Below are positions 2,392-62,789 of a stretch of DNA of 64,000 nt, piece by piece (the first letter of the stretch is position 1; the number at the start of each line of letters is the position of its first letter). The translations under genes were made by a program, and so were the position numbers. The notes under the pieces were generated by a model. That model searched no databases and was not told the DNA's origin. It was given only the letters and a program-made list of their open reading frames with translations. The stretch comes from Streptomyces leeuwenhoekii (GTDB taxonomy: Bacteria > Actinomycetota > Actinomycetes > Streptomycetales > Streptomycetaceae), in the NCBI RefSeq assembly GCF_001013905.1, contig NZ_LN831790.1:7454001-7518000 (forward strand), in the 5' to 3' direction.

Positions 2392-2500
2392 GCCGCGACT
2401 CCCCTCCGCCCGTGCGAGCCGGCGAGCCGCGGGCGGAGGGGGCCCCTCACGACCGCGTGACGGGCTACCCACCCCAACGTCGAAGGGACGACGGACGACG

Positions 2501-9897: not shown

Positions 9898-11345
<1,448 letters not shown>

Positions 11346-11349
<4 letters not shown>

Positions 11350-12290
11350 TGACGAGCATGGCTGCGTCCCCTTCGTCCCGGACCTTCCAGCCGGTCCTGG
11401 AGCGCATCGCCGAGGAGATCGAGCACACCCCCGGCGGCGGCCGGGCCGCCGACTACATCCCGGCGCTCGCCGCCCGCGACCCGCGCCGCTTCGGCATGGC
11501 CGTCGCCGAGCTCGACGGCACGGTGTACGGCGTGGGGGACTGGCGGGAGCCCTTCTCGGCCCAGTCCATCACCAAGGTCTTCACCCTCGCCCTCGACCTG
11601 GCCCGCGAGGGCGACCAGCTCTGGGAGCACGTGGGCCGCGAGCCCTCCGGCAACCCCTTCAACTCCCTGGTGCAGCTCGAGTACGAGAACGGCATCCCGC
11701 GCAACCCGTTCATCAACGCGGGCGCCCTCGTCGTCACCGACCGCCTCCACACCCGTACCGGCGACGCCGCCGGTGAACTGCTCGCCTTCCTGCGCGCCGA
11801 GAGCGGCAACCCGGACCTCGCCTTCGACGAGGAGGTCGCCGCCTCGGAGTCCGCCCACGGCGACCGCAACGCGGCCCTGGCCCACTTCATGGCGTCCTAC
11901 GGCAACGTCGACAACCCGGTGCCGGTCCTGCTGGAGCAGTACTTCCGCCAGTGCTCCATCGCGGCGTCGTGCGCCGACCTCGCCCTGGCCACCACCTTCC
12001 TCGCCCGGCACGGCGTCCGCGCCGACGGCTCCCGGCTGCTCAGCCGCAGCCAGGCCAAGCAGGTCAACGCGGTGATGCTGACGTGCGGGACGTACGACGC
12101 GGCCGGCGACTTCGCCTACCGGGTGGGCCTGCCCGGCAAGAGCGGCGTCGGCGGCGGCATCATCGCCGTCGTCCCCGGCCGCTGCACGCTGTGCGTCTGG
12201 AGCCCCGGCCTCGACGAGCGGGGCAACTCGGTGGCCGGGGTGGCCGCCCTGGACCGCTTCACCACCCTGACCGGCCTGTCGGTCTTCTGA
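11346..12290 (+). CDS. glsA: serine-dependent glutaminase
   Basis: A 314-residue cytoplasmic glutaminase of the beta-lactamase-like fold that converts glutamine to glutamate and ammonia. The nucleophile motif is SITK in EPFSAQSITKVFTLAL; other blocks are GNPFNSLVQLEYENGIPRNPFINAGALV and CSIAASCADLALATTFLA plus GLPGKSGVGGGI, all standard for GlsA. Tandem ATG codons at 11346 and 11349 overlap the aspA stop. With asparaginase and aspartase it completes an operon-like set releasing ammonia from Asn, Asp and Gln under the FadR-type regulator. Confidence 0.94.
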
Positions 12291-43832: not shown

Positions 43833-44006
43833 GGTGCGCCTTTCGGTTCGGTGGTTCGGCCGAGGAGGACGGACCGGCCGGCGGCCTTACGTACGGCTCG
43901 CCGGCCCGGTACGCGCTGGGAAGAAGGCACGGCGCCGGGCGGCCCGCGTGCGGCGGACCCGCCGCCGTGCCGGCTCGGGTCACCCTTTCGTCTGTGGCGA
44001 GTTCCC

Positions 44007-45869
<1,863 letters not shown>

Positions 45870-47851: not shown

Positions 47852-49108
47852 ATGACCGACCAGGCCGAACGCCCCTACGCCCCGCCGTCCCTCCATCTGC
47901 CCCTGTCCGGCGACACCCCGCTCGATCCGCCCGCCGAGTGGGAGGAACTGCGGGCACGGTGTCCCGTCGCCCACGCCACGCTGCCCAGCGGTGACACGGC
48001 GGTGTACCTGACCCGCTACGACGATGTCCGCGCCCTGCTCTCCGACCCCCGGTTCGTCCGCCCCACCGATCGGGACAACGCCGCCCGGCTGGCCCCCGAG
48101 GGCATGGGCGGAGCCGCCGTCACCGGCAGCACCGCCGTCGCGATCCCCGACCGGGGCGCACCGCACCAGCGCTGGCGGCGCCGGGTCGGCCGGTACTTCA
48201 CCGCCAAGCGGATGACCGCCCTGCGCCCTGGCATGACCCGCCTCGCCGAGGACCTCGTCGACGCCATGCTCGCCGACGGTGCTCCCGCGGATCTGCGGGC
48301 GAGTCTCGGCTTTCCGTTCCCCGTCTACGTCATCTGCGACCTCCTCGGCGTTCCCGCGGAGGACCGGGAGCGCTTCTCGCACTGGTCCGACAGCTTCCTG
48401 AGCGTCACCCGCTACACCGCCGACAAGATCCGCACCGCCCAGCAGGAGTTCGTCGCCTACATGTCCGGGCACGTCGCCGCCAAGCGGGCAGAACCGGCCG
48501 ACGACCTCCTCAGCACCCTCATCGCGGAGAGCGAGACCGAGGGGAGCGAAGGGAGCGACGACGGCGGCGGCCTGAGCCACGACGAACTCGTGGCCACCGG
48601 CATGGGCCTGCTCGTTGCCGGCCACGAGACCACCGCCAACATGATCGGCAAGATGGTGTCCATGCTGCTCTGCGACCGCAGCCGCTGGGAACAACTGCTG
48701 GCCGACCCCTCGCTGGTGCGCTCCGCCGTCGAGGAGTCCCTGCGCTTCGACACCAACCTCGGCTTCGGCCTGCGGCGTTACATCGGCGAGGACGTCGAGA
48801 TCGGCGGGCACGTCGTCCCCGCGGGGAGCACGGTGGTGTGCAGCATGCCGGCCGCCAACCGCGACGAGCGGGCGTTCGACGACGCCGACACGATGGACCT
48901 CGCCCGCACCCCCAATCCCCACCTGACCTTCGGTGCGGGACCGCACTCCTGTCTGGGCCAGGCCCTGGCCCGCACCGAACTCCAGGTCGTCCTGGAGGCC
49001 CTGCTCGCGCGCGTGCCCACCCTGCGCCTCGCCGTCCCCGTCGATGAACTGCGCAGGACGGAGGGCCTCCTCGTCGGCGGCCTGCGCGAAGTCCCCGTTC
49101 GCTGGTGA
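47852..49108 (+). CDS. cytochrome P450 (bacterial class I)
   Basis: A 418-residue soluble P450. The I-helix oxygen motif is LLVAGHETTANMI, the K-helix ExxR is in VEESLRF, and the heme-binding loop is FGAGPHSCLGQALA with Cys367 as ligand. It has the CYP107/105-like layout of Streptomyces tailoring and detoxifying enzymes; the substrate cannot be read. The ATG follows GAGGAGACGCCCG. It is 19 bp upstream of a ferredoxin gene that should supply its electrons. It could belong to the biosynthetic cluster starting 0.6 kb away, or be an independent MarR-regulated oxidase. Confidence 0.95.
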   Translation: MTDQAERPYAPPSLHLPLSGDTPLDPPAEWEELRARCPVAHATLPSGDTAVYLTRYDDVRALLSDPRFVRPTDRDNAARLAPEGMGGAAVTGSTAVAIPDRGAPHQRWRRRVGRYFTAKRMTALRPGMTRLAEDLVDAMLADGAPADLRASLGFPFPVYVICDLLGVPAEDRERFSHWSDSFLSVTRYTADKIRTAQQEFVAYMSGHVAAKRAEPADDLLSTLIAESETEGSEGSDDGGGLSHDELVATGMGLLVAGHETTANMIGKMVSMLLCDRSRWEQLLADPSLVRSAVEESLRFDTNLGFGLRRYIGEDVEIGGHVVPAGSTVVCSMPAANRDERAFDDADTMDLARTPNPHLTFGAGPHSCLGQALARTELQVVLEALLARVPTLRLAVPVDELRRTEGLLVGGLREVPVRW

Positions 49109-49127
49109 CCCGTAAAGGAGACGGACC

Positions 49128-49328
49128 GTGAAACTCACCGTCGACCAGGACAAGTGCTGCGGTGCCGGTGCGTGCGTCCTGTCCGCGCCGGAGGTCTTCG
49201 ACCAGCGGGACGAGGACGGCATCGTCACCCTCCTGACCCCCGAACCCGCCCCCGAGCAGCACGCCGCCGTGCACGAGGCGGCGGCCGTCTGCCCCGCGGC
49301 GGCGATCCATGTGACCGGGACGGACTGA
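49128..49328 (+). CDS. 3Fe-4S ferredoxin
   Basis: A 66-residue P450-type ferredoxin: VDQDKCCGAGACVLSAPEVFD and AAAVCPAAAI. C10, C16 and C55 are the cluster ligands of a 3Fe-4S centre; the residue usually filled by a fourth Cys is Ala. It accepts electrons from a reductase encoded elsewhere and passes them to the P450 upstream. GTG 49128 with AAAGGAG before it. Confidence 0.94.
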   Translation: MKLTVDQDKCCGAGACVLSAPEVFDQRDEDGIVTLLTPEPAPEQHAAVHEAAAVCPAAAIHVTGTD

Positions 49329-49720: not shown

Positions 49721-50983
49721 TCAGGAGGCGAGCCGGCCTTCCGCGTCGCCCGCGTAGAGACTCTCGTGTTCGAGTCTGCGCACCTGCCGGTAATCCCGTT
49801 CCACCTGGTCGAGGTCGTCGCCGAGCAGGTAGAGGTGACCGGGGGAGGTGAACAGGTCGACCGTTCTGTGGACGGGGGCGCCCGGCTGGAGCGCGTCGGT
49901 GGAGCCGCACAGGTAGCTGGGGAGCCGGCGCAGCTCGTCCAGGGGGGCGGCGGCGATCCGGCCGCCCCGCGAGGCGATCAGGACGACCACCCTCAGATGC
50001 TTGAGGAGCTGGTAGTCGGTGCCGGGCAGCCGGGAGAAGCGTGCCGGGTCCGTGTACGCGTCGACCGTCAGCGACACCTGACTGTGGCCGGTGGCGGCCC
50101 GCGGCCCGCGGGAGGTGACCGATCCCTCGAGCCGGGCACCGATCTCGATGAGCACCGGTCCCCGTGCCGTCAGCATGACCTCGGCATGGGCAGGACCGTG
50201 GGCGATGCCCAGGGCGTCGAGCACTTGGCTGACGTACGCGGTCAGGGCGCGCTGGACCGCACCGCCGGGCGGGAGCAGGTCCTGGTAGTCGTAGACCACC
50301 GCGCCGTCGACGCTGGTGCGCTGCTCCCGCCAGATCTCGTGGATGAAGTGCTTGCCGTCGCGGCTCACCGAGTTGACGAAGTACTGCTCGCCGACGAGGA
50401 GTTCCTGGGCCAGGACCCGGTCGTTGAAGCCGCCCATCTGGTTCGTCTGCCCGTGGATGCGCTCGAACGCCTTCCTGGCCTGTGCCGCGTTCTCGCAGAT
50501 GGCCACCGCGTCCGACCCGGCGCTCGCCAGCGGTTTCACCACCAGCGGCCAGTGACCCTCGGCGTCGGCCCAGGACAGGATCTCGGCCACGTCCTGTGCG
50601 GCGAGGCTCGCGGCAGCCGCGACGCCCTGCGCGCGCAGGCGCTCGGCCATGGCGAACTTGTCCCGGCGGCAGTGGCTCAACGCCGTGCCGTTGCCGGGCA
50701 GTCCGAGCCGTTCGGCCAGCTCGTCGGCCGTGTGCACGCCCCACTCGGAGCCGGTGATCACATGGGCGGGCCGGGCGGCCCGGAGCTGTGTGGTGACGTC
50801 GGTACCCGCGGAGGCGTCCAGGACCGCGGCGTAGTGTTCGGGGCGGAAGCCGCGGCGGAACTCCGCGGGCACGTCGCCGGTGCTGAGCAGGGCGATGGCC
50901 TGCCAGCCCCGGCGCGCGAACTCCGGGGCGAGCTGCGCCCCGGTGGAGAACGGATCGACGATGGCGACGGTGGGGCGGGTCAC
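49721..50983 (-). CDS. ATP-grasp carboxylate-amine ligase
   Basis: A 420-residue cytosolic ATP-grasp enzyme related to the BacD/dapdiamide-type L-amino-acid ligases. The N-terminal pre-ATP domain (PTVAIVDPFSTGAQLAPEFARRGW) is followed by LSHCRRDKFAMAERLRAQGV, the ATP-binding lysine region HWPLVVKPLASAGSDAVAIC and the metal-binding HAEVMLTARGPVLIEIGARLEG. It should activate a carboxylate as acyl-phosphate and join it to an amine, most likely an amino acid. I start at GTG 50983, which overlaps the stop of the aldo/keto reductase; a GTG nine bases upstream is possible. It is the downstream gene of a two-gene unit transcribed away from the NRPS-like gene. Confidence 0.9.
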   Translation of the reverse strand: MTRPTVAIVDPFSTGAQLAPEFARRGWQAIALLSTGDVPAEFRRGFRPEHYAAVLDASAGTDVTTQLRAARPAHVITGSEWGVHTADELAERLGLPGNGTALSHCRRDKFAMAERLRAQGVAAAASLAAQDVAEILSWADAEGHWPLVVKPLASAGSDAVAICENAAQARKAFERIHGQTNQMGGFNDRVLAQELLVGEQYFVNSVSRDGKHFIHEIWREQRTSVDGAVVYDYQDLLPPGGAVQRALTAYVSQVLDALGIAHGPAHAEVMLTARGPVLIEIGARLEGSVTSRGPRAATGHSQVSLTVDAYTDPARFSRLPGTDYQLLKHLRVVVLIASRGGRIAAAPLDELRRLPSYLCGSTDALQPGAPVHRTVDLFTSPGHLYLLGDDLDQVERDYRQVRRLEHESLYAGDAEGRLAS

Positions 50984-51963
50984 TGCGACCACTCCGTGGG
51001 CCGGCGGTCCCAGCGGTGGCGACGCAGCTCGGCCAGCAGCTCGGGGGCGAGCGGTGTGCCGTCACTGACGGCGAGATTGGCACGCACATGGGCCGGGGTG
51101 CGCATACCGGGAATCACCGTGTGGACCGCCCGGTGGTTCAGGATGAAGCGCAGAGCCAGCTCGGGCATGGTCATCCCCTCGGGGACCACGGGGCGCAGCC
51201 GCTCGGCGCGTTCGACGCTGGCGGCCAGATTCTCCGGCACGAAGTAGCTGTTGCGCCAGTCGCCCTCGGGCCACCGGCTCTGCGGGGTCAGGGTGCCGGT
51301 GAGGGTGCCCTCGTCGAACGGCACGCGGGCGATGACGCCCACGTCGTGGCGTTCGCAGGCGTCGAGGAGTTCGTCCTCGGGGGCCTGGTCGAAGATGTTG
51401 TAGATCACCTGGACGACGTCGACGAGCCCGGTGTCCAGGGCCGCCAGCACGTTCCAGGGCTCCCAGCGGTTGACGCTGATGCCGACGGCCTCCACCAGGC
51501 CCTGCCGCTTCATCCGTTCCACCTGGCGCACCCACAGGTCGTCGGAGGCCCACGCGTCCTCCCAGACGTGGTAGTGCAACAGATCGATCCGGTCGACGCC
51601 GAGGTTCTCGCGACTGTGGTGCAGATACTCCTCGACGTGGGCGTCGGGGAAGACCTCGGCGAAGCGGGCGTCCTTCCGCGGCGGCCAGCGGCGGTCCAGC
51701 GGCGGGATCTTGGTGGCGACGTACAGCCTCCGCTCGGGGTGGTCCCGGCACAGCCGTCCCAGAAGCTCCTCGCTGTGGCCGCGGCCGTAGATCCAGGCGG
51801 TGTCGAAGAAGTTGCAGCCGCCCGCCACGGCGAGCTCGAGTGCCTCGCGGCCCGCGTCCTCGTCCGTACCGGTCCAGCCGCCGGGGCCGCCCCCGATGCC
51901 CCACATGCCGTAGCCGATCTCGCTGACCTGCCAGCCCGTACGTCCGAAACGACGAAACCGCAC
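50980..51963 (-). CDS. aldo/keto reductase
   Basis: A 327-residue NADPH-dependent aldo/keto reductase of the AKR-11/12-like group (YdjG type). The catalytic tetrad residues are in FFDTAWIYGRGHSEELLG (Asp, Tyr), YVATKIPP (Lys) and DLLHYHVWED (His). The barrel ends with VHTVIPGMRTPAHV, the NADP-binding loop. It is coupled to the ATP-grasp gene by overlapping stop and start. In the cluster it may reduce the aldehyde formed by the NRPS-like enzyme. GTG 51963 has GGGGAGGG upstream. Confidence 0.93.
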   Translation of the reverse strand: MRFRRFGRTGWQVSEIGYGMWGIGGGPGGWTGTDEDAGREALELAVAGGCNFFDTAWIYGRGHSEELLGRLCRDHPERRLYVATKIPPLDRRWPPRKDARFAEVFPDAHVEEYLHHSRENLGVDRIDLLHYHVWEDAWASDDLWVRQVERMKRQGLVEAVGISVNRWEPWNVLAALDTGLVDVVQVIYNIFDQAPEDELLDACERHDVGVIARVPFDEGTLTGTLTPQSRWPEGDWRNSYFVPENLAASVERAERLRPVVPEGMTMPELALRFILNHRAVHTVIPGMRTPAHVRANLAVSDGTPLAPELLAELRRHRWDRRPTEWSQ

Positions 51964-52046
51964 CCGTCGAGCCCTCCCCAACGTAGTGTCAACTTACGCG
52001 CCACAGTACAGGATTGACGGTTATTGGTTCCCCGAAGGGAGAGCTG

Positions 52047-55000
52047 GTGCGGTCCGATCTGCGACGTCGGCTCCTGGTCGACTTCCAAGGGCGCCGAGTG
52101 CCCTATCCCACCGGCCGGACGACTATCCACCTGTTTGAGGACCACGCCCGAGACCATCCCGACCGGCCGGCCCTCCGCTGGGCGGACGCCTGTCTGACCT
52201 ACGGTGAGCTCGACGCGCTGGCCGCCCGGTGGGCCGGGGTGCTGCGCGCGCGGGGAGTCGAGCGGGGAGACTTCGTTCCCCTGGTCACCGCCGGCGGGCC
52301 CGAACTGCCCGTGATGATGCTCGCGTCGATGAAGGTCGGCGCGCCGTTCGTGCCCATCGACGACGCCTGGCCGCGGCAGCGCCTGCACGAGAGCCTGCGG
52401 CGGCTGCGGCCACGGGTCGTCGTCCGAACCGGGCCCGGTCCGGAAGCGGGCGACACCTCGATCGGTCTGGACGGTCTGGACGGTCTGGACGGCCTGGACG
52501 GCCTGGACGTGGTGCGTGTCGCGGGCACGGCACCACCCGACGGCGCCGCCGCCGTGCCCGAGGCGGTGGCCACGGTGGACGACCTGGCCTACGGCTTCTT
52601 CACCTCGGGCTCGACCGGCGCCCCCAAGTGCGCGCTCAACCGTCATCTCGGCCTGCTCAACCGCTTCCTGTCGATGACCCGCCGCTTCGGCGCCCAGCGC
52701 GACGTGGTGCTCCAGAACAGCCGGCACGTCTTCGACTCCTCGCTGTGGCAGCTCCTGTGGCCCCTGACCAAGGGCAGCCAGGTCGTGCTTCCGGACCGGG
52801 CCGGCATCCTCGACCTGCCGCGGACCGTGGAGGAGATGGCCCGCTACGGAGTGACCGCCACCGACTTCGTGCCCTCCGTCTTCAACATCCTGGTGGAACT
52901 GCTCACCTCCGACCCCGGGCTGCGCGGTCGGCTGACCTCCCTGCGGCACCTGCTCATCGGGGGCGAGGAGATCGATCCGGGCGCGGTGCGCGCCTTCCGG
53001 GCGATGTTCCCGCGGGTGACCCTCACCAACACCTTCGGGCCCACCGAGGCCTCCATCGGCTCGGTCTTCCACGAGATCCAGGACCAGGACGGCTCGGCGG
53101 TGCCCATCGGCCGGCCCATCGACAACACCTGCGCGATCCTGCTCGACGAGCGCGGGCACCTGGTGGAGCCGGGCACGATCGGCGAGATATACCTGGGCGG
53201 CGACTGCCTGGGAACGGGGTATCTCGGTGACGCCCGGCGCACCGCGGCCGCCTTCGTGCCCAACCCCTTCGCGGAGATACCCGGAACCCGGCTGTACCGC
53301 ACCGGAGATCTGGCCTGGCAGCGGGACGACGGGGCGCTGATGTTCGTGGGGCGGCGTGACCAGCAGATCAAGCTGAACGGGGCGCTCATCGACCTGCTGG
53401 AGGTGGAGACCGCCGTCGCCGGACACCCGGCGGTGCACCAGGCCAAGGCCGTCGTCCACGGCCACGGCGATCTCAAGACGCTCGCCTGCTGCTACGTCGC
53501 CGACGCGCCTGTGTCCGCGCGCGAGCTGGCGGCGCACTGCGGGGACCTGCTGCCGGCCCACGCGGTGCCGCGGGTGTTCCTGTCCGTGGCCCGCGTCCCG
53601 CTCACCGGCAACGGCAAGACCGACCGGCTGGCGCTCAAGCGGGAGGTGGCGGCGCGCCTGTCCACGAAGCGGCAGGAGACGGCGGCCGGACGCGGTCCGC
53701 GCCTGACGGAGCGGCAACACGAACTGGCCCGGCTGTGGGCGCAGTTGCTGCCCTCCTTGCCCGCCGGGCTGCCACGCCCCGATTCCGGCTTCCATGAACT
53801 CGGCGGCACCTCGCTGACGCTGCAGCGCCTCGCCGGGCTGATCCAGCGGTCCACGGGGCTGCGGCTGCCGCTGAAGAGCCTGGCGGCCGCCGGCACCCTG
53901 GCCGAACAGGCCGTGTTGCTGATGCCGGGGGGCACCGGCGCGGCGCGGGCCCTGGACTCCGCCGCCGATCAGCAGATGCGGGCGGACATCGAGCGGGCCG
54001 CGGCCGTGCCGCCCGCACCGGGGCACCCCCCGTCCCATGCGCCCCGGCACGCGCTGCTCACCGGCGCCACCGGCTTCCTGGGCGTCCATCTGCTCGCCGA
54101 GCTCCTGGAACGTACCGAGGCCGTGGTGCACTGTCTGGTGCGCGCCCGCGACCAGGGCGAGGCGCGGCTGCGGCTCGACCGGGTGCTCGCCGAGCACGGC
54201 CTGGACCTCGACGCGGGGCGGATCGTACCGGTACCCGGTGACCTGGCGCGGCCCCGGCTCGGCCTGGCCGCCGAGGCGTGGGAGGGGCTCGCGGAGCGGA
54301 CCGACTCCGTCGTGCACGCCGGCGCGCTGGTCAACCTCGTCCTCGGGTACTCCGGTCTCAGGGCCCCCAATGTGCTGGGCACGGCAGAGGTGCTGCGACT
54401 GGCCGTGACCGGCCGGCCCAAGCGCCTGCACCACGTCTCCACCCTGGGCGTGATCCCCGAGGGGGCGGGCCCGCTCCTGGAGGAGCACCGGCCCCTCCAG
54501 GCGCCCCGCGGCGGCTACGGCCGTTCCAAGTGGGCCGCCGAGCAGATCCTCGCCGCGGCCCGCGGCCGGGGCATCCCCAGCACGGTCTTCCGGCTGGGCG
54601 AGGTGATGGCGCACTCCCGGACGGGCCGGGGCAACCCGCGCTCGGTCCTGGAGCTGCTGCTGCGGGCCTGCGTCCGGCTGCGGCTGCGGGTGGCGACCGA
54701 TGCCGTGACCGACTGGACTCCGGTCGACCAGGCGGCGTCCGCCCTGGTCGAGGCGGTACGCACGGGGCGGGACAACGACAGCTTCCATGTGCTCAGACCC
54801 GGGGCGGTGCGGATCGACCGGCTCCTGGCGCTGCTCCACGAGCGCCTGCCCCTGCGCGAGACCGACTACCGCACCTTCCACGCGCAGACCACCGAGGGCG
54901 CGGCCCACGGTGCGGCGGAACTGGCGGCCCTGCGCTCCCTGCTGCCCGACCCGGAGACCGTCGGGCCCGGCGCGGACGCGCTCGCCGGGCTGTTCGGGGA

Positions 55001-55121
55001 CGGGGGCAGGCAGGTGTCGTGCAAGCACGGGTCCGAGCTGGCCGAGGCGTGCGGCCTGGCGTGGACGCCGGTGGGCGAGGACGTGCTGCTCGCCTGTGTG
55101 CGCCGTCTGGTGAGCGACTGA
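52047..55121 (+). CDS. stand-alone NRPS-like adenylation-PCP-thioester reductase enzyme
   Basis: A 1024-residue A-PCP-R protein. Adenylation domain about 30-540: YGFFTSGSTGAPKCAL (A3), FDSSLWQL (A4), NTFGPTEASIG (A5), YRTGDL (A7), GRRDQQIKLNG (A8), PLTGNGKTDR (A10). PCP: ELGGTSL with phosphopantetheinyl Ser589. Reductase: NADPH site LLTGATGFLGVHLL (about 670) and Y824/K828 in YGRSK. No condensation or thioesterase domain. It should load one amino or carboxylic acid and release it as an aldehyde or, with a second reduction, an alcohol. By eye the pocket code reads roughly D-S-W-D-L-G-T-I-G; no substrate recognised. GTG 52047 with GAAGGGA upstream; a TTG at 52014 is in frame. Confidence 0.94.
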   Translation: MRSDLRRRLLVDFQGRRVPYPTGRTTIHLFEDHARDHPDRPALRWADACLTYGELDALAARWAGVLRARGVERGDFVPLVTAGGPELPVMMLASMKVGAPFVPIDDAWPRQRLHESLRRLRPRVVVRTGPGPEAGDTSIGLDGLDGLDGLDGLDVVRVAGTAPPDGAAAVPEAVATVDDLAYGFFTSGSTGAPKCALNRHLGLLNRFLSMTRRFGAQRDVVLQNSRHVFDSSLWQLLWPLTKGSQVVLPDRAGILDLPRTVEEMARYGVTATDFVPSVFNILVELLTSDPGLRGRLTSLRHLLIGGEEIDPGAVRAFRAMFPRVTLTNTFGPTEASIGSVFHEIQDQDGSAVPIGRPIDNTCAILLDERGHLVEPGTIGEIYLGGDCLGTGYLGDARRTAAAFVPNPFAEIPGTRLYRTGDLAWQRDDGALMFVGRRDQQIKLNGALIDLLEVETAVAGHPAVHQAKAVVHGHGDLKTLACCYVADAPVSARELAAHCGDLLPAHAVPRVFLSVARVPLTGNGKTDRLALKREVAARLSTKRQETAAGRGPRLTERQHELARLWAQLLPSLPAGLPRPDSGFHELGGTSLTLQRLAGLIQRSTGLRLPLKSLAAAGTLAEQAVLLMPGGTGAARALDSAADQQMRADIERAAAVPPAPGHPPSHAPRHALLTGATGFLGVHLLAELLERTEAVVHCLVRARDQGEARLRLDRVLAEHGLDLDAGRIVPVPGDLARPRLGLAAEAWEGLAERTDSVVHAGALVNLVLGYSGLRAPNVLGTAEVLRLAVTGRPKRLHHVSTLGVIPEGAGPLLEEHRPLQAPRGGYGRSKWAAEQILAAARGRGIPSTVFRLGEVMAHSRTGRGNPRSVLELLLRACVRLRLRVATDAVTDWTPVDQAASALVEAVRTGRDNDSFHVLRPGAVRIDRLLALLHERLPLRETDYRTFHAQTTEGAAHGAAELAALRSLLPDPETVGPGADALAGLFGDGGRQVSCKHGSELAEACGLAWTPVGEDVLLACVRRLVSD
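52464..52508 (+). repeat. five 9-bp tandem repeats inside the A domain
   Basis: GGTCTGGAC occurs three times and GGCCTGGAC twice, in a row, giving five Gly-Leu-Asp units. They lie in a surface loop between the A2 and A3 regions of the adenylation domain. Perfect in-frame unit repeats like this tend to vary in number between strains by replication slippage. Confidence 0.9.
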
Positions 55122-55126
55122 CCGCG

Positions 55127-55159
55127 CTGTGCGGCGCCCGCCCGGCGGACGCCGCACAG
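55127..55159. terminator. bidirectional terminator between NRPS-like and permease genes
   Basis: CTGTGCGGCG (55127-55136) pairs with CGCCGCACAG (55150-55159) over a 13-nt loop in the 41-bp gap between the convergent genes. Confidence 0.65.
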
Positions 55160-55162
55160 GGT

Positions 55163-56695
55163 TCAGCGGTCCGGGGCCCGACGGCGCCGGGTGCGGGCGG
55201 CCAGGGCCCAGAACGCCACCGCCAGCAGGGCGAAGCCGAGCAGCGGCAGACCCTGGGTGGCCAGATACGTCCAGCGCTCGTCGTGGGTCCACCCCGAGGG
55301 CGCGAAGTCCGCGCCGAACCAGTCGGCCCCCAGCCCGGGCGTTATCAGCTGGAGGGTGGCGAAGGCGATCAGCAGGGTCAGCAGGGTCGCGATCGCGCTG
55401 GGATACGGAGCCCGGTAGGGCCGTTCGACGTCGGGAAACCTGGTGCGCAGCGCCGGCAGCGCCGGGAAGATCCACAAGTAGCTGATCAACGTGGTGGACA
55501 CGGCGAGGGAGAGCACCGCGCCGAAGTACTTGGCCGTGTCGCCGCCGGTCAGCTCGTGGGTGAGTACGAGCACGCCGGTGGCGACCCCGCCGGAGAGCAG
55601 GTTGACGCGCACGGGTGTGCCGAACCGCTCGGAGAGCACGCCCAGACCGCGCGGCGCGGCGCCGTCGTAGCCGGCGACGGCCAGGGCCCGGTCGGAGCCC
55701 ATCAGCCATGCTGTGCCGGAGGAGAACAGGGTCAGTACGAAGGCCACCGCGCAGGCGCTTCCCAGCACCTGCCCCAGGCCGGTGAGCACCACCGTGCCGT
55801 CGGCCTGTACATGGCCGCCGTAGACGGTGAAGACCTGCCGTACCGTGTCGAGGAAGCCGCCGAGTCCGGTGACCGCCGCCACCGGCAGCACCAGCAGGAT
55901 GCCCAGGACCGGGACGGAGTAGAGCAGCACGCTGAGCACGGCGCTGCGGAAGATGGCGAAGGGGACGTCCCGCTGGGGGTCGCGCATCTCCTCACCCGCG
56001 CTGCTGGGCAGTTCGAAGCCCACGTAGTTGAACATCAGAACCGGTATGAGCCCGATGAAGCCCGCCCAGGTGGGGACGAAGTCGCCCGCGCCGAAGCCGT
56101 GCAATCCGTTCTTGACGGCGTAGACCAGCACGGTGGCGGAGAAGAGGCCGAGCAGCACCAGGCGGGCCCAGCCGCCCAGGATGGGGATCCACTTGCCGAT
56201 CCGGAACGACAGCACCGCGGCGAGTACGCCGGTCCAGATGAAGGCCAGCGTGCCGGCGTAGAAGCCGGCGCCGCCCAGCGCGGTGCCGTCGCCGAAGAAG
56301 GTGGTGAAGGCGGTGACGGCCGCGACCGAAAGCGTGCCGCCGACCCACACCGGGGTGGTGACCCAGTACAGGAAGGCGGTGAAGGCGCCGGCCAGGTGAC
56401 CGAAGGCGAGCCGGACCCATAGATAGGGGCCGCCTTCCTGGGGGAAAGCGGCTCCCAGCTCGGCGAACAGCAGGGCCGAGGGGACGAAGAATACGGCCGC
56501 GAGCACGATCATCCAGGTGAACGCCTCGGGGCCGTGGGCCGCGACGGTGCCGACGGTGTCCAGCCCGACGATGGTGCACAGCAGAAAAAAGAGGATGTCG
56601 AACCGGCCAAGATTCTTTTTCAGTTTGCGTCGTTCGACCGCCGAGCTGTCGTCGATCAAGGGCGGAGGGAGAGGTGATACGGCTGGCGTGTCCAT
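55163..56695 (-). CDS. APC-family amino-acid permease
   Basis: A 510-residue membrane protein with about twelve hydrophobic segments. The first is FDILFFLLCTIVGLDTVGTVAAHG after a basic start; the family block is GLIPVLMFNYVGFELPSSAGEEMRDPQRDVP (segment six, with the FELPSSAGEE signature of the amino-acid/polyamine/organocation superfamily). It probably brings an amino-acid precursor into the cell or exports the product. It is divergent from the radical SAM operon with 247 bp between. ATG 56695 was chosen; in-frame GTG codons at 56701 and 56731 could extend it. Confidence 0.92.
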   Translation of the reverse strand: MDTPAVSPLPPPLIDDSSAVERRKLKKNLGRFDILFFLLCTIVGLDTVGTVAAHGPEAFTWMIVLAAVFFVPSALLFAELGAAFPQEGGPYLWVRLAFGHLAGAFTAFLYWVTTPVWVGGTLSVAAVTAFTTFFGDGTALGGAGFYAGTLAFIWTGVLAAVLSFRIGKWIPILGGWARLVLLGLFSATVLVYAVKNGLHGFGAGDFVPTWAGFIGLIPVLMFNYVGFELPSSAGEEMRDPQRDVPFAIFRSAVLSVLLYSVPVLGILLVLPVAAVTGLGGFLDTVRQVFTVYGGHVQADGTVVLTGLGQVLGSACAVAFVLTLFSSGTAWLMGSDRALAVAGYDGAAPRGLGVLSERFGTPVRVNLLSGGVATGVLVLTHELTGGDTAKYFGAVLSLAVSTTLISYLWIFPALPALRTRFPDVERPYRAPYPSAIATLLTLLIAFATLQLITPGLGADWFGADFAPSGWTHDERWTYLATQGLPLLGFALLAVAFWALAARTRRRRAPDR

Positions 56696-56942
56696 GTGCA
56701 CGGATACTGCACTTCCCCCGTCGGACCGCACAACATGAAATGGCTTTTTCCGCTGCGGGGGAGGCCGGACCGGAGAACTTTCGCCGAAGCGAGCGGAATG
56801 ATTGCTTCAATGGCGTCACGGCATCGACTCTCGGCCAACTAACCGCAGAAGTAGGCTACTTGACGCCCCATGACCGGTACGCAAGACTGACTCGCCTGTT
56901 TGGCGGGATCAATCTGCCACGGATGCCCCCGGGGAGTCCTGC
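56696..56942. promoter_or_regulatory. divergent promoter region of permease and radical SAM operon
   Basis: The 247-bp gap has a lower GC content than either gene. It should hold promoters for both directions. GGGGAG before GTG 56943 is a clear ribosome site. I found no palindrome shared with the 83-bp gap at 51964-52046, so the cluster does not visibly share one operator. Confidence 0.4.
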
Positions 56943-58511
56943 GTGAAAGTCAACCTGTACTACGCCCCATTCCCCTCGCAGATCTTTCGCGGCTGCGAAG
57001 AACCCATCAATACGGAGCGGCCACTGAATCCGAAGAGCGCCCTTCCCACGCTGGCGGCGGGCCTTCGGATGTTCTCGGAAGAAATGGGCTTCGACTGCGA
57101 CATCGAGATCATCGATATGCAGCTCGGCGGGCAGCGCATCCCGTACAAGACCATCGAGTACGGCCCGCACCAGATGGACTGCTATCGCTACGGGTCTCCC
57201 TTCGAGGATTTCGTCGAGCAGATCCGCGGAGCCGATATCCACGGACTGACCTGCAATTTCACGAACAGTGCGCAGATCACCGCGGACCTCGCCCAGTTCA
57301 TCAAGGCCGTCAACCCCAGGGCCTTCGTGGTGGCCGGCGGCGTCGATCCCACGGCCCGCCCGCACTACTACCTCCAGCGCGGGGTCGATCTGGTCGTCCA
57401 GGGCGAGGGTGAATGGGTCTTCTCGCGGGTCGTCCAGGCGTTCGCCAACGGCGGCGACTACAGCGAGATCCCCAACACCGCCACCCTCGACCGGATCGCG
57501 CCGAAGATCGACATGTCGCACATCCTGGACATGAACGCCCTGCCGCCGATGGCCCTCGACCTGGTCGGCGACCTCTCGCTGTACACCGACACCGCCGAGG
57601 GCCCGCCCCCCGAGGGCGTGGGCACCAACTACATCTGCTGGGAGACCTCCCGCGGCTGCGCCTGGCGCTGCTCCTTCTGCACCGCCCCCTCGCGCGGCAA
57701 GTACCGCTTCATGTCGCCCGCCGCGGTGGAGACACACCTGAAGTACTTCCGCTCGCTGGGCATCAAGACCATCGTGTGGCAGGAGGACAACCCGCTCTCG
57801 CGCATCCAGCAGAACGGCACCGGGCGCTACCTGTACGACAGCGGCCGCGAGGAACTCCTCGACATCTTCCGGATGATCCGCTCGTACGGGTTCGCCTGGG
57901 AGTTCGCCAACGGCATCGAGTTCGGCAAGTTCCGGCAGAACGGCCGGTTCGACCACGAGCTGGCCGAAGCGCTGCTGGGCAGCGACAAGTCGGCCGACGG
58001 ATGGACCGGCTGCTACCGGGTTCAGATCCCGCTCGACAACATGAACATCGCCAAGAGCCGCTTCCCCAAGCTCCTCGGCTTCGACGAGCAGGTCGACATC
58101 CTGGCGACGATGCTCACCGACTACGGCGTCGGGCACCAGACCTACGACCTGTTCATCGGCTACCCGGAGCAGGACGCGGTCGCGGTCGACCAGTTCAACG
58201 ACTACTGCCGGCGCATCAAGGAGGAGCTGAGCGCCCTGGGCGGCGACGCCTACCAGCCCTACTTCAACGTCTTCAACCTCTCGCTGCTCCCCGGGGCCCG
58301 CGACTACACCACGTTGCGCAAGCTGCTGGCCTTCGACGTGGAGGAGAACCCGGAAGTGATCGGGATCTTCCTGTCGGCGATCAACACCGACCACTTCAGC
58401 TACTGGGACGTCTACCAGAAGCGCCTGGAGATGACCAACGCCCTCAACGACCGCGAGCTGCACCGGCTGTACGACGGGATCTACGCCGGTCCGACCACGG
58501 CGGGGGTGTGA
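56943..58511 (+). CDS. cobalamin-binding-domain radical SAM enzyme, first paralog
   Basis: A 522-residue B12-type radical SAM enzyme (BchE/OxsB-like layout). Residues 1-190 form a Rossmann-like B12 domain (IRGADIHGLTCNFTNSAQIT, PRAFVVAGGVDPTARPHY, GVDLVVQGEGEWVF). The 4Fe-4S motif CAWRCSFC has Cys239, Cys243 and Cys246; SRGCAWRCSFCTAPSRGKYRFMSP continues as a usual radical SAM barrel, with FEWEFANGIEFGKF-type blocks. Members either transfer a methyl group to an unactivated carbon or rearrange carbon skeletons. GTG 56943. Its stop overlaps the earliest start of the second paralog. Substrate unknown. Confidence 0.9.
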   Translation: MKVNLYYAPFPSQIFRGCEEPINTERPLNPKSALPTLAAGLRMFSEEMGFDCDIEIIDMQLGGQRIPYKTIEYGPHQMDCYRYGSPFEDFVEQIRGADIHGLTCNFTNSAQITADLAQFIKAVNPRAFVVAGGVDPTARPHYYLQRGVDLVVQGEGEWVFSRVVQAFANGGDYSEIPNTATLDRIAPKIDMSHILDMNALPPMALDLVGDLSLYTDTAEGPPPEGVGTNYICWETSRGCAWRCSFCTAPSRGKYRFMSPAAVETHLKYFRSLGIKTIVWQEDNPLSRIQQNGTGRYLYDSGREELLDIFRMIRSYGFAWEFANGIEFGKFRQNGRFDHELAEALLGSDKSADGWTGCYRVQIPLDNMNIAKSRFPKLLGFDEQVDILATMLTDYGVGHQTYDLFIGYPEQDAVAVDQFNDYCRRIKEELSALGGDAYQPYFNVFNLSLLPGARDYTTLRKLLAFDVEENPEVIGIFLSAINTDHFSYWDVYQKRLEMTNALNDRELHRLYDGIYAGPTTAGV

Positions 58512-58516
58512 GCGCG

Positions 58517-60088
58517 GTGAAGGTGCACCTCTACTACGCCCCCTACCCCGGCCAGCGGTTCGCCGGGGAGGAGGAGACCATCAGCCCGGTGCGGGTCTTC
58601 AATCCCAAGAGCGCCCTGGCCACACTGGCCGCCGGCACGCGTGCCCACCTCGCCGAGTGGGGCGTCGAAGCAGAGATCAGGATCATCGACACCCAGGTGG
58701 ACGACGACGAGCCGGTGCACTACAAGTCGTTCGCCTACGGCCCGCGCACCATCGAGTGCCTTCGCTTCGGCGGCGCCTTCGAGCGCTACGACGCGTCACT
58801 GCGCGAAGCCGACATCATCGGCATCTCCAACAACTTCACCAACTCCGCCGGTGCCGTCACCGACTTCGCCAAGCACGCCAAGGCGGTCAACCCGCGTGCC
58901 CTGGTCGTCGCCGGCGGCATGGACGCCACCGCCCGCTCCGAGTGGTACCTGGACAACGGCTTCGACGTGGTCGTCCAACTGGAGGGGGAGTTCCTCTTCG
59001 CCAAGGTGATCGAGGCGGTGGCCAACGGCACACCCCTGAAGGAAGCGGTCTTCTGCCGCGAGCACCGCAGCGGCCAGATCGTCTTCGGCAGCCCCGCCAT
59101 CAACCTCAACGAGCTGCCCCCGATGGCCCTGGACCTGGTCGAAGGATACGAGCGGTACAACGACACCGGCGAAGGCACCCCGCCACCGACCGTGGCGGCC
59201 CCCTTCACCTGCTTCGAGTCCTCCCGCGGCTGCCACCGTACCTGCTCCTTCTGCGCGACTCCGATGCGCGGCAAGTACCGCTACATGTCGCCGGAGGCGG
59301 TCGAGCGCCACTTCGCCTACTTCCGCAGCATGGGAATCCGCAACATCCTCTTCCAGGAGGACAACATCCTCTCCCGCCTGCAACGCAGCGGGCGCGGCAC
59401 CATGTACTACGAGAGCGGCCGCGACGAGGTCATACGGATCTTCCAGTTGGCCCGCGAGTACGGCTTCTCCTGGGAGTTCGCCAACGGCCTGGAGTTCGGC
59501 AAGTTCCTCGACATGGGCAAGCCGGACCTGGAGCTGATGGAGTACATGTTCTGGAGCGACCGGTCGGGCGGCACCTGGCGGGGCTGCTACCGCGTGCAGA
59601 TCCCGCTGGAGTTCCTGGGCGAGGACCCCACCAGCAAGTTCAACAAGCTGCGCGGCTTCGAGGAAGAGCTGGAGATCCTGGAGGCCATGCTGAACTACGG
59701 GGTCGACTACCAGACGTTCAACGTGCTGATCGGGCACGACGGCGACGACCGGGCCGCCATCGACACCTACCTGCGGCGCAGTCTGCAGCTGAAGGAGGCT
59801 CTGCTGAACCGGGCCCCCCAGGTCGTGCCGTACTTCAACATCTTCAACCGGACCCTGCTGCCGGGCACGGCCGACTTCAGGAAGAAGCACGAGCGCCTGG
59901 AGTTCGACATCGACCGCGATCCGGAGGTCATCAGCGTCTACCTCTCGCCGATGAACACGGAGCACCTGTCCTACTACGAGCTCCTGGACGAGCGGCTGCG
60001 CCTGATGCGGGAGCTGAACGGCGACCTCATCGACCAGTACGACGGCATCCACCGAGCCCCCCTGACGGAAGCCGACAGCACGTCGTGA
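58517..60088 (+). CDS. cobalamin-binding-domain radical SAM enzyme, second paralog
   Basis: A 523-residue paralog of the gene before it. The start VKVHLYYAPYPGQRF aligns with VNLYYAPFPSQIF, the B12 domain with EADIIGISNNFTNSAGAVTDF and ALVVAGGMDATARSEWY, and the cluster motif CHRTCSFC again at Cys239, Cys243 and Cys246. That exact register supports GTG 58517; the GTG at 58508 overlapping the upstream stop would add three residues. Divergence is scattered over the whole length, so the duplication is old and both copies are probably used. It may act on a second position or second step. Confidence 0.9.
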   Translation: MKVHLYYAPYPGQRFAGEEETISPVRVFNPKSALATLAAGTRAHLAEWGVEAEIRIIDTQVDDDEPVHYKSFAYGPRTIECLRFGGAFERYDASLREADIIGISNNFTNSAGAVTDFAKHAKAVNPRALVVAGGMDATARSEWYLDNGFDVVVQLEGEFLFAKVIEAVANGTPLKEAVFCREHRSGQIVFGSPAINLNELPPMALDLVEGYERYNDTGEGTPPPTVAAPFTCFESSRGCHRTCSFCATPMRGKYRYMSPEAVERHFAYFRSMGIRNILFQEDNILSRLQRSGRGTMYYESGRDEVIRIFQLAREYGFSWEFANGLEFGKFLDMGKPDLELMEYMFWSDRSGGTWRGCYRVQIPLEFLGEDPTSKFNKLRGFEEELEILEAMLNYGVDYQTFNVLIGHDGDDRAAIDTYLRRSLQLKEALLNRAPQVVPYFNIFNRTLLPGTADFRKKHERLEFDIDRDPEVISVYLSPMNTEHLSYYELLDERLRLMRELNGDLIDQYDGIHRAPLTEADSTS

Positions 60089-61422
60089 AACGAGTCACCG
60101 CCCACCGCCTGCGGCGGTACGGCTTCGGCGCCCTGTGGCTGGGGCAGAGCCTGTCGCTGGTGGGCACCCAGATCGGCACCCTGGCCCTGTCCCTCGTCGC
60201 CGTGATCCACCTGGACGCCGGATCCGACCAGCTCGGCGTGATCAGGGCCCTGCAGTACCTGCCCTTCCTGCTGTTCGCCCTGCCGCTGGGGCCGCTGGTC
60301 GACCGCAAGGACCGCCGGCGGCTGATGCTGGTGGCGGACGTGGCACGCGCGGTCCTGGTGGCCGCCGTGCCGCTGCTCCACGTACTGGGGCTGCTCAGCC
60401 TGTGGTGGCTGTACGCGGTCCCGTTCGTGCTGGGCGTCTTCCAGGCGCTGTTCGATTCGGCCTACCTGGCCTACGTACCCCAGTTGGTGGGCCGGGAGCG
60501 GCTCACCCGGGCCAACCGCAACCTCCAGGCCAGCCAGTCCGCGGCCGACCTCGGCGGCCCCGGCCTGGGCGGGCTGGTGTGCGGGGCGATCGGGGCTCCT
60601 CTCGCGCTGCTGCTCGATGCCGTCTCCTTCGCCGTCTCCGCGGTGACACTCGCGCTGATCAAGCCGTTCCGCCGCACCGAGCGCCCGGCGTCCGAAGCCC
60701 CGATGCCCGACACCCCGGCACCGGCCGCCTCCGCGCCGGTCCGCCAGGCGGTGGCGACGTGGTGGCGCGAGGTCCGCGAAGGCATCGTCTTCGTCTTCCG
60801 GCAGGCCGAGCTGCGTGCGCTGGCCGTGGAGACCGCGGTCTTCAACGCCTGCGAGCAGGGCATCCTGGTGCTGTACACGGTGTACGCCGTACAGGAACTG
60901 CGGTTCTCGCCGCTGCTGCTCGGCCTGACCCTGGCGGCGGGCGGAGTCGGCGCGCTGCTCGGCACGTTCCTGTCCGAGCGGGCCAGCCGGCGCCTGGGCC
61001 TGGGACGCACCATCGTGCTGGGCTCGGTGGTGGGCAGCGCCGCCTTCCTGCTGATCCCGGCGGCCGCGGGCGGGCGGACGGCGGTCTTCGCCGTCGTCTG
61101 CCTGGGGTTCGGCCTCGCGGGGGTGGCCACCGGCATCTCCAACGTGCTGCAGGTGTCACTGCGCCAGATGCTCACCCCGGACTCCCTCACCGGCCGGATG
61201 ACCGCCTCCCTGCGCTTCGTGGCGTACGGCATGGTGCCGATCGGTTCCGTGCTGGGGGGTGTGCTCGGCTCCGCGCTCGGCCTGCGGCCCGGGCTGTGGC
61301 TGCTGTCCGCGGCGCTGCTGTTCGGACCGCTGGCCATCATCTGCTCCCCGCTGCCGGGGCGCCGCACCCTTCCCGACCGTCCGCCAACTGACGGTCATAC
61401 AAAAGCACTTGAGCGTTCCTGA
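60085..61422 (+). CDS. MFS exporter (EntS-like)
   Basis: A 445-residue major facilitator protein with twelve hydrophobic segments and a long central loop (PFRRTERPASEAPMP, PAPAASAP). LGPLVDRKDRRRLMLVADV is the MFS loop 2-3 signature; the closest family is the EntS/TetV-like drug and siderophore exporters. It is coupled to the second radical SAM gene by overlapping GTG and TGA, so it belongs to the cluster and probably exports the product or gives self-resistance. Confidence 0.9.
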   Translation: MKRVTAHRLRRYGFGALWLGQSLSLVGTQIGTLALSLVAVIHLDAGSDQLGVIRALQYLPFLLFALPLGPLVDRKDRRRLMLVADVARAVLVAAVPLLHVLGLLSLWWLYAVPFVLGVFQALFDSAYLAYVPQLVGRERLTRANRNLQASQSAADLGGPGLGGLVCGAIGAPLALLLDAVSFAVSAVTLALIKPFRRTERPASEAPMPDTPAPAASAPVRQAVATWWREVREGIVFVFRQAELRALAVETAVFNACEQGILVLYTVYAVQELRFSPLLLGLTLAAGGVGALLGTFLSERASRRLGLGRTIVLGSVVGSAAFLLIPAAAGGRTAVFAVVCLGFGLAGVATGISNVLQVSLRQMLTPDSLTGRMTASLRFVAYGMVPIGSVLGGVLGSALGLRPGLWLLSAALLFGPLAIICSPLPGRRTLPDRPPTDGHTKALERS

Positions 61423-61478
61423 TCCGCCGTGCCATTAGACTCACCCCTCGACCACAGCTTGGGGAAGGGCGACGCACC

Positions 61479-62789
61479 GTGGACAGGTTCACGTACAAGA
61501 ACGGCTCGCTGCACTGCGAGGAGGTGAACCTGGAGGACCTGGCCGTCGAGTACGGCACACCGACGTACGTGTACTCCCGCGATACGTTGACCACCCACCT
61601 CGCCGACCTGACCGCGGCCTTCGCCGACCTCGACCCGCTCGTCTGCTACGCCGTCAAGACGTGCAGCAACCTGCACCTGCTGCACGAGCTCGGGGCCGGC
61701 GGGGCCGGCGCCGACGTGGTCAGCGGCGGCGAGCTGCACCGGGCGCTGACCGCGGGCATCCCGGCGGAGCGCATCGTCTTCGCCGGGGTCGGCAAGTCGC
61801 GGGAGGAACTCGAAGAGGCGGTCGCCCACAACATCGGCTGTGTCAACGTCGAGTCCGAATCCGAGCTGGAACTGCTGGCCGACGTCGTACGGCAGGCGGG
61901 CCGCACCCAGCGCGTCGCCATCCGTGTCAACCCCGACGTGCAGGGCCACGGCACCCCGGAGAAGACCACCACGGGCACCCGCGGCAGCAAGTTCGGCGTG
62001 GACCTGGAGCGGGTCGCGGACGTCTTCACGCGCGCCGCACAGCTACCGCAGCTACGACTGGCAGGACTCCACGTCCACCTCGGCTCGCCCATCTACTCTC
62101 CCGAGCCGTACGTCCGGGCGCTGACCCGTGTCCTGGAGCTGGAGGGGCAGTTGCGCGCCGCCGGTCACCACATCGAACTGATCAACATGGGCGGCGGGTT
62201 CGCGGCCGACTACGAGACGGGGCTGGCGCCCGGGTGGAAGGACTACGCGGCGGCCATCGTCCCGGTGCTGCGGCCCTTCGTCGCGGCCGGCGGCCGCGTC
62301 ATCATGGAGCCGGGCCGCTCCATCGCCGCCAACGCCGGGGTGCTGCTCACCCGCGTGCGCTATCTCAAGAGCGCCGGCCCGCGCACGGTGGCCATCGTCG
62401 ACGCGGGCATGACCAACCTGATCCGCGCGGCGCTGTACGACGCCTTCCACTTCATGTGGCCGGTGCGCCCGGCCGGCGGTCTCGTCCCCCCGAACCGCAC
62501 CGAGGACCTGCGCCTGGAACACTCCCAGGAGTACGACGTGGCGGGCCCCATCTGCGAGTCCAGCGACTACCTGGCCCGCGCCCGCTCGCTCCCTCGTCTG
62601 GGTGAGGGCGACCTGCTGGCCGTCTTCGGGGCCGGCGCCTACGGCATGGCCATGGCCAGCCAGTACAACTCCTCGCTGCGCCCGGCCGAGGTGCTGGTGG
62701 AAGGCGACGGCAGCCGGCTGATCCGCCGGCGGGACACCTACCACGACCTGGTCGCGGCGGAACTGGACCTTCCCGGCGGGAAGTTCTAG
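61479..62789 (+). CDS. diaminopimelate-decarboxylase-like PLP enzyme
   Basis: A 436-residue fold-type III PLP decarboxylase. PLP-binding Lys60 is in LVCYAVKTCSN; MGGGFAADYE binds the phosphate; HVHLGSPIY and EPGRSIAANAG are LysA blocks; CESSDYLA holds the dimer-interface Cys359. Housekeeping LysA acts on meso-diaminopimelate. Here it sits last in a biosynthetic operon, so it may supply lysine or decarboxylate a product-specific intermediate at a D-configured carbon. It follows the MFS gene by 56 bp with a TAGACT (61436-61441) that could be its own -10. GTG 61479 with GGGGAAGGG upstream. Confidence 0.92.
   Translation: MDRFTYKNGSLHCEEVNLEDLAVEYGTPTYVYSRDTLTTHLADLTAAFADLDPLVCYAVKTCSNLHLLHELGAGGAGADVVSGGELHRALTAGIPAERIVFAGVGKSREELEEAVAHNIGCVNVESESELELLADVVRQAGRTQRVAIRVNPDVQGHGTPEKTTTGTRGSKFGVDLERVADVFTRAAQLPQLRLAGLHVHLGSPIYSPEPYVRALTRVLELEGQLRAAGHHIELINMGGGFAADYETGLAPGWKDYAAAIVPVLRPFVAAGGRVIMEPGRSIAANAGVLLTRVRYLKSAGPRTVAIVDAGMTNLIRAALYDAFHFMWPVRPAGGLVPPNRTEDLRLEHSQEYDVAGPICESSDYLARARSLPRLGEGDLLAVFGAGAYGMAMASQYNSSLRPAEVLVEGDGSRLIRRRDTYHDLVAAELDLPGGKF

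Follow-up and report, generated by a model that had tools for sequence, protein, structure and literature searches.

In the dapdiamide and bacilysin pathways (DdaF, BacD), ATP-grasp ligases join two amino acids without a nonribosomal peptide synthetase (NRPS). A DdaF-like ligase, predicted to act in the same way, is encoded in an eight-gene cluster that we analysed in Streptomyces leeuwenhoekii (contig NZ_LN831790.1, positions 7,454,001 to 7,518,000 of the forward strand; this whole stretch of 64,000 nucleotides is referred to as the window, in which the cluster occupies positions 49721-62789). The ligase scored 217.4 bits against the DdaF profile, far under the equivalog cut-off of 840, and BacD/BL00235 was among its fold matches. 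In contrast to both pathways, the window cluster adds an NRPS-like protein with adenylation, peptidyl carrier and reductase domains (A-PCP-R), two cobalamin-type radical S-adenosylmethionine (SAM) enzymes (rSAM1 and rSAM2) and a paralogue of diaminopimelate (DAP) decarboxylase.

Each of these additions has its own described counterpart. The A-PCP-R order and reductive release are shared with MxcG of myxochelin biosynthesis, the best NCBIfam match of the window protein (484.8 bits); the latter, however, is without a condensation domain (no PF00668 match) and stays far under the MxcG cut-off of 2300. AprD4, MgmA, CysS, OxsB and TsrM share with the window radical SAM enzymes the CX3CX2C motif and, along the entire chain, the two-domain fold, but identity in the structural alignments is only 13-19%, and the window enzymes form a family of their own. 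The decarboxylase exceeds the cut-off for LysA and keeps its landmarks, but differs from it as a dedicated, cluster-tied copy beside a genomic lysA located elsewhere. Each enzyme is of a known class; within the literature searched, their combination appears undescribed, as do the family of radical SAM enzymes and, presented below, the cassette of A-PCP-R and aldo-keto reductase (AKR). The part of the literature that we covered held no described cluster with the same gene set, the many-term queries giving weak evidence of absence; an earlier note on this DNA, made from the sequence alone, had likewise not recognised a known pathway. We consider it a good possibility, a little short of an even chance, that the cluster makes a small dipeptide-like specialised metabolite without NRPS condensation, by way of two converging branches and a ligase.

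Conservation and layout of the gene set

The GTDB species collection was scanned with aligned members of the radical SAM family as query, which yielded 12 loci (L004-L015). Six were actinobacterial: Streptomyces harenosi (L004), Streptomyces sp. ODS25 (L005), and Micromonospora okii, alfalfae, acroterricola and tarensis (L006-L009). A core of six genes (A-PCP-R, AKR, ATP-grasp ligase, rSAM1, rSAM2 and decarboxylase) was present within 12-14 kb in all six, with rSAM1 adjoining rSAM2 in each, and the order of the core took three arrangements, the window included. The ATP-grasp match in L009 was split over four tblastn pieces. By tblastn, the core was absent from all the non-actinobacterial loci (L010-L015), of which L013 and L015 gave identical match values and were counted as one. 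Amino acid identity to the window was 91-99% over the eight genes in S. harenosi (98% for rSAM2), and in Micromonospora 41-42% for A-PCP-R and 66-73% for the radical SAM enzymes.

The single genes were rare in genome samples that included the window's own genome, with an E-value limit set for each search. The rSAM2 query matched one of 392 genomes of the genus, its own, and one of 396 of the phylum; A-PCP-R was found in 2 of 121 genomes of the genus and 1 of 296 of the phylum, AKR in 8 of 297 of the family, and the ATP-grasp ligase in 2 of 295 of the genus. Five plasmid records gave an rSAM2 tblastn match, all below 60% identity. Since the six core genes recur together in 6/6 loci although each query was rare, the gene set is a real single cluster, and chance co-location is not credible. 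The cluster is rare and patchily distributed among actinobacteria, and its core order is shuffled. The proposal in the earlier note of one biosynthetic cluster is borne out, as the core genes stay together in these relatives and were not found separated.

All eight genes were intact and open, and the outer coordinates agreed with those of the earlier note, as did the domains, which we assigned with Pfam and NCBIfam profiles. On the reverse strand, the ATP-grasp L-amino acid ligase-like gene (49721-50992; PF13535, and NF005543 above its cut-off) overlaps by 13 nt with the AKR gene (50980-51981; PF00248). The A-PCP-R gene (52014-55121, forward strand; AMP-binding, PP-binding and NAD_binding_4/thioester reductase domains) and the gene of an APC-family amino acid permease (55163-56731, reverse strand; PF13520) stand separate, each as its own candidate transcription unit. 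The forward strand then carries rSAM1 (56943-58511) and rSAM2 (58508-60088), both encoding a B12-binding domain followed by a radical SAM domain (PF02310, PF04055), a predicted major facilitator superfamily (MFS) exporter (60085-61422; PF07690; TIGR00900 at 223 bits, below its cut-off) and, starting 56 bases past the latter, the decarboxylase gene (61479-62789; Orn_DAP_Arg_deC; TIGR01048 lysA). Start positions were refined for rSAM2 (58508) and MFS (60085). Because these two genes each overlap the preceding gene by four bases, rSAM1, rSAM2 and MFS are probably translated together. Given the overlaps and the stand-alone A-PCP-R and permease genes, the four neighbouring transcription units proposed earlier are a fair description. 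The G+C content of the radical SAM genes (0.649 and 0.660) was lower than that of the other six (0.695-0.738). The single adenylation domain was confirmed, and Pfam reported no condensation domain (PF00668) among the eight proteins, as the earlier note had claimed. Upstream of the radical SAM genes, a window scan gave no Rfam match at the gathering cut-off for a cobalamin riboswitch or any other known RNA, and as to bldA control, eleven genes checked contained zero TTA codons.

Radical SAM pair and decarboxylase paralogue

The assignment of rSAM1 and rSAM2 as B12 radical SAM enzymes holds: besides the two domains found in both, the cysteines of the CX3CX2C motif (C242, C246, C249) were invariant in 43 aligned sequences (alignment A1). 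A database search, which scored only the 8000 candidates with the most words in common with the query, gave 111 proteins, of which about 105 formed a distinct family; no characterised member occurred among the names shown for it. In a tree of 101 rows, built by a quick method with midpoint root and weak support at 20 of 98 inner branches, an rSAM1-type group, an rSAM2-type group and a third group including Pseudomonas, Kordia and alphaproteobacterial enzymes were separated. The best match of a Ruminiclostridium enzyme was rSAM1.

In three loci outside the actinobacteria (L010, L013 and L014) the radical SAM gene stands alone and is adjoined by an EamA-type transporter gene, which suggests that the substrate is a free small molecule. 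In L014 a LuxR-type autoinducer-binding regulator is encoded 1.3 kb downstream of the lone gene. NRPS-like matches and an ABC transporter gene lie upstream in L011 (Kordia), and branched-chain amino acid transport genes lie downstream in L012. In L013, from an alphaproteobacterium, the lone radical SAM gene (9992-11620) is immediately preceded by that of a haem-oxygenase-like iron enzyme (PF14518; 9192-9953), and the EamA gene lies downstream.

The model of rSAM2 was confident and aligned from end to end with radical SAM enzymes of the cobalamin type. The structural matches were led by AprD4, a radical SAM 1,2-diol dehydratase, followed by MgmA, CysS, OxsB and TsrM. As AprD4 ranks ahead of the methylases and all have the same fold, the modelled fold of rSAM2 cannot tell methylation from other radical reactions. 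That the two enzymes do not methylate at all, and instead catalyse a dehydration, the contraction of a ring or a rearrangement in the manner of AprD4 or OxsB, is a real possibility, although we put it below even; the methylases follow closely (MgmA 23.6, CysS 22.8, TsrM 21.3), and a shared fold is no proof of function. From the two enzymes the earlier note had predicted one or two C-methyl groups or a ring rearrangement. Of these, C-methylation stays a prediction, given the lead of AprD4.

The decarboxylase scored 444.6 bits against TIGR01048 (lysA), the cut-off being 297.9. It aligned along its length with the solved DAP decarboxylases 3vab, 3n2b and 2p3e, including the landmarks of cofactor binding and DAP recognition, YAVK, EPGRS, LIR..LY, CES and GAYG. 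The lysine of the pyridoxal phosphate (PLP) site, EPGR, R...Y, CES and GAYG were kept in all seven cluster decarboxylases, the four Micromonospora proteins reading FSAK and AR..MY around the PLP lysine and the R...Y landmark. As these main landmarks are kept, the sequence suggests a DAP-type substrate, modified or not, and a DAP/lysine-type unit in the product. The same retention of landmarks, together with the score above the lysA cut-off, would fit a paralogue that merely raises the supply of lysine, in which case lysine or methyl-lysine would be the building block and the radical SAM enzymes would act after decarboxylation. We regard this as somewhat unlikely: identity to the highest-scoring lysA of the genome, which scores higher and is located elsewhere, is only 37%, and the paralogue is kept in 7/7 clusters, more than would be required of a dispensable gene for lysine supply. 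The window's own genome (L003) also contains a third decarboxylase gene resembling lysA (210.5 bits, under the lysA cut-off).

A portable cassette and a ligase

The AKR query found eight relatives with 60-68% identity in seven other genomes. Six of these regions, from five genomes, were fetched; the matching genomes G795 and G811 were left out. Together with L020, chosen via A-PCP-R, this gave seven loci outside the cluster, and in 7/7 the AKR gene lay beside an A-PCP-R-type gene (in L034 and L035 this label rests on parts other than the reductase). As six of the loci were chosen via AKR, the count shows A-PCP-R to be the partner of this AKR, and does not imply an AKR for each A-PCP-R. The candidate D/Y/K/H residues of AKR, which would form the catalytic tetrad, were kept in the printed part of a 13-row alignment.

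The neighbours of the cassette varied. L020, L030 and L032 carry a gene for a DAO-family FAD amino acid oxidase-like protein and form three-gene sets with A-PCP-R and AKR. L031 and L033 are small clusters in which the cassette is joined by an argininosuccinate-synthase-like gene, a LuxR regulator and a LysE exporter. In L034 and L035 an NRPS lies nearby, identified by Pfam in the former and by similar tblastn matches in the latter.

The ten-residue specificity code of the adenylation pocket was read by alignment, with residue positions mapped from GrsA numbering. All seven cluster members had DSWD(L/F)GTIGK, with L in the window, L004 and L005 and F in the four Micromonospora proteins. Among the best 120 of 567 matches, DSWDLGTIGK occurred in 107, and D at positions 1 and 4 and W at position 3 in all 120. 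DSWDLGTIGK was also read in L031 and L033, the same code as in the window, DSWDVGGIGK in L020, L030 and L032, and DSWDVGAIGK in L034 and L035. The acidic residue at position 4 may point to a side chain that is basic or carries an amine. Within the 19.9 kb fetched for L031 and L033 there was no match to rSAM1 or rSAM2, so that the pocket seems independent of the presence of radical SAM enzymes. Because the same code occurs in cassettes without such a match, the amino acid loaded by A-PCP-R is probably a simple one and not the radical SAM product.

These observations bear on the model of the earlier note, in which A-PCP-R itself loads the radical SAM-modified amino acid or dipeptide and releases a protease-inhibiting peptide aldehyde. 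A reductase domain conventionally releases an aldehyde, and one adenylation domain without a reported condensation domain would fit such a release. However, the pocket code is shared with loci lacking a radical SAM match, and the AKR gene, present in 7/7 clusters and in the seven other loci (six of them AKR-selected), favours a further reduction; we judge the model distinctly unlikely. Given the AKR partner, an amino alcohol end would be at least as likely as an aldehyde. The protease-inhibitor aldehyde is possible and not favoured. That two unrelated clusters (ATP-grasp/AKR/A-PCP-R and radical SAM/MFS/decarboxylase) became adjacent by chance would suit the separate transcription units and the occurrence of AKR and A-PCP-R without the rest, but is extremely improbable, being contradicted by six rare core genes that co-occur in differing orders in Streptomyces and Micromonospora.

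In the adenylation domain of the window A-PCP-R (residues 151-165, window 52464-52508), five in-frame Gly-Leu-Asp repeats were observed. Two were present in the 98% identical homologue P0112, two in an altered setting in S. harenosi and none in L005; the run resembles a 9-base repeat that varies in length.

The ATP-grasp protein models as an enzyme of the L-amino acid ligase type. In its AlphaFold2 model (pLDDT, the predicted local distance difference test, 92.6) the six best PDB chains were L-amino acid ligases, representing three enzymes, followed by PurK/GAR-synthetase folds, and the sequence matched the 30vh L-amino acid ligase with 243.5 bits. These best fold matches support the peptide-bond-type ligase of the earlier note. 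A relative with 55% identity (L038) lies beside LysX-like ligase, AA-kinase and semialdehyde-dehydrogenase genes, a layout known from amino-group-carrier pathways of the vazabitide/ficellomycin type leading to unusual dipeptides. The window cluster differs from those pathways, as Pfam found no LysX-like ligase, kinase or semialdehyde dehydrogenase among its eight proteins.

Accessory genes and proposed pathway

The best NCBIfam match of the permease was a GadC-type antiporter, below cut-off. Its gene was found in L004 and L005, and in none of L006-L009 at E<=1e-8. Some MFS gene was present in all seven clusters; the window type was matched in the Streptomyces loci only, and Micromonospora carries another. 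A GNAT-type protein is encoded in L005 and in all four Micromonospora loci and not in L004; the L005 query gave nothing in the window's genome, in a search without positive control.

Just outside the cluster lies a P450 and small ferredoxin gene pair (47852-49325; best P450 match pentalenolactone synthase, below cut-off), which the earlier note had counted as possible members. We rejected them, since no tblastn match was obtained at E<=1 in L004-L015. The L004 sequence extends 1.2 kb past the ATP-grasp gene, enough, in a layout like that of the window, for the ferredoxin gene and a portion of the P450 gene, a remoter P450 falling outside it. In S. harenosi a ricin-lectin-domain gene (L004 14614-15681) lies between the decarboxylase gene and an ABC ATPase gene; in the window these two are some 200 bases apart. 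Elsewhere in the window (370-4060 and 41517-45851) plant-polysaccharide genes were seen, among which GH42 adjoins GH53, while enzymes of GH127 and GH10 bear ricin-type lectin domains.

What was observed directly is which genes are present, how they are conserved, to which families they belong and how their models fold. The pathway that follows builds on this; its substrates, the sequence of its steps, the amide bond and the alcohol as end group are inferred. In one branch, a free amino acid, probably of the DAP/lysine type, would be C-methylated or rearranged by the radical carbon chemistry of rSAM1 and rSAM2; the decarboxylase paralogue, acting on this DAP-type intermediate or on DAP as such, would take off the D-end carboxyl and leave a modified L-lysine-type unit. 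In the other, A-PCP-R would load a second, simple amino acid via its DSWD pocket and reduce it to an amino aldehyde, which AKR may reduce further to the amino alcohol. The ATP-grasp ligase would then join both units by an amide bond, and the MFS protein would export the product. In Streptomyces, the permease may import the precursor or exchange it, while in L005 and Micromonospora the GNAT-type protein might add an acylation or transfer that the window cluster lacks. The interpretation in the earlier note is partly supported.

Several points weigh against this pathway. A diol dehydratase, AprD4, outranks the methylases among the fold matches of rSAM2, and no EamA gene occurred among the neighbours scanned beside the radical SAM gene in L011 and L012. 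The radical SAM enzymes may act on the assembled dipeptide, and the decarboxylase could only boost lysine supply. The pocket code had no match in the portion of the literature searched, the multi-term query being weak evidence of absence. A-PCP-R proteins without an AKR were hardly sampled, and the direction of the reaction by reductase domain and AKR is an assumption.

A wider proposal, unlikely on our own estimate, is that antimetabolite amino acids are made by a so far unrecognised route that this radical SAM family defines. In the simplest version (Pseudomonas, Ruminiclostridium, Alphaproteobacteria) a single enzyme would act on a free amino acid, and the EamA transporter encoded beside it would export the product. 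The duplicated actinomycete pair would act twice on a DAP/lysine skeleton that is then decarboxylated at its D-end and coupled by the ATP-grasp ligase to an amino alcohol from the portable A-PCP-R and AKR cassette.

If the proposed pathway is true, one small natural cluster would combine radical chemistry at carbon in a free amino acid, a lysA paralogue recruited to secondary metabolism, one-module reductive loading and a stand-alone ligase. The cassette of A-PCP-R and AKR was seen in three other gene settings, and knowing its substrate would help to decode all of them. In the lone radical SAM relatives of other bacteria, substrate and reaction would be addressable with one gene.

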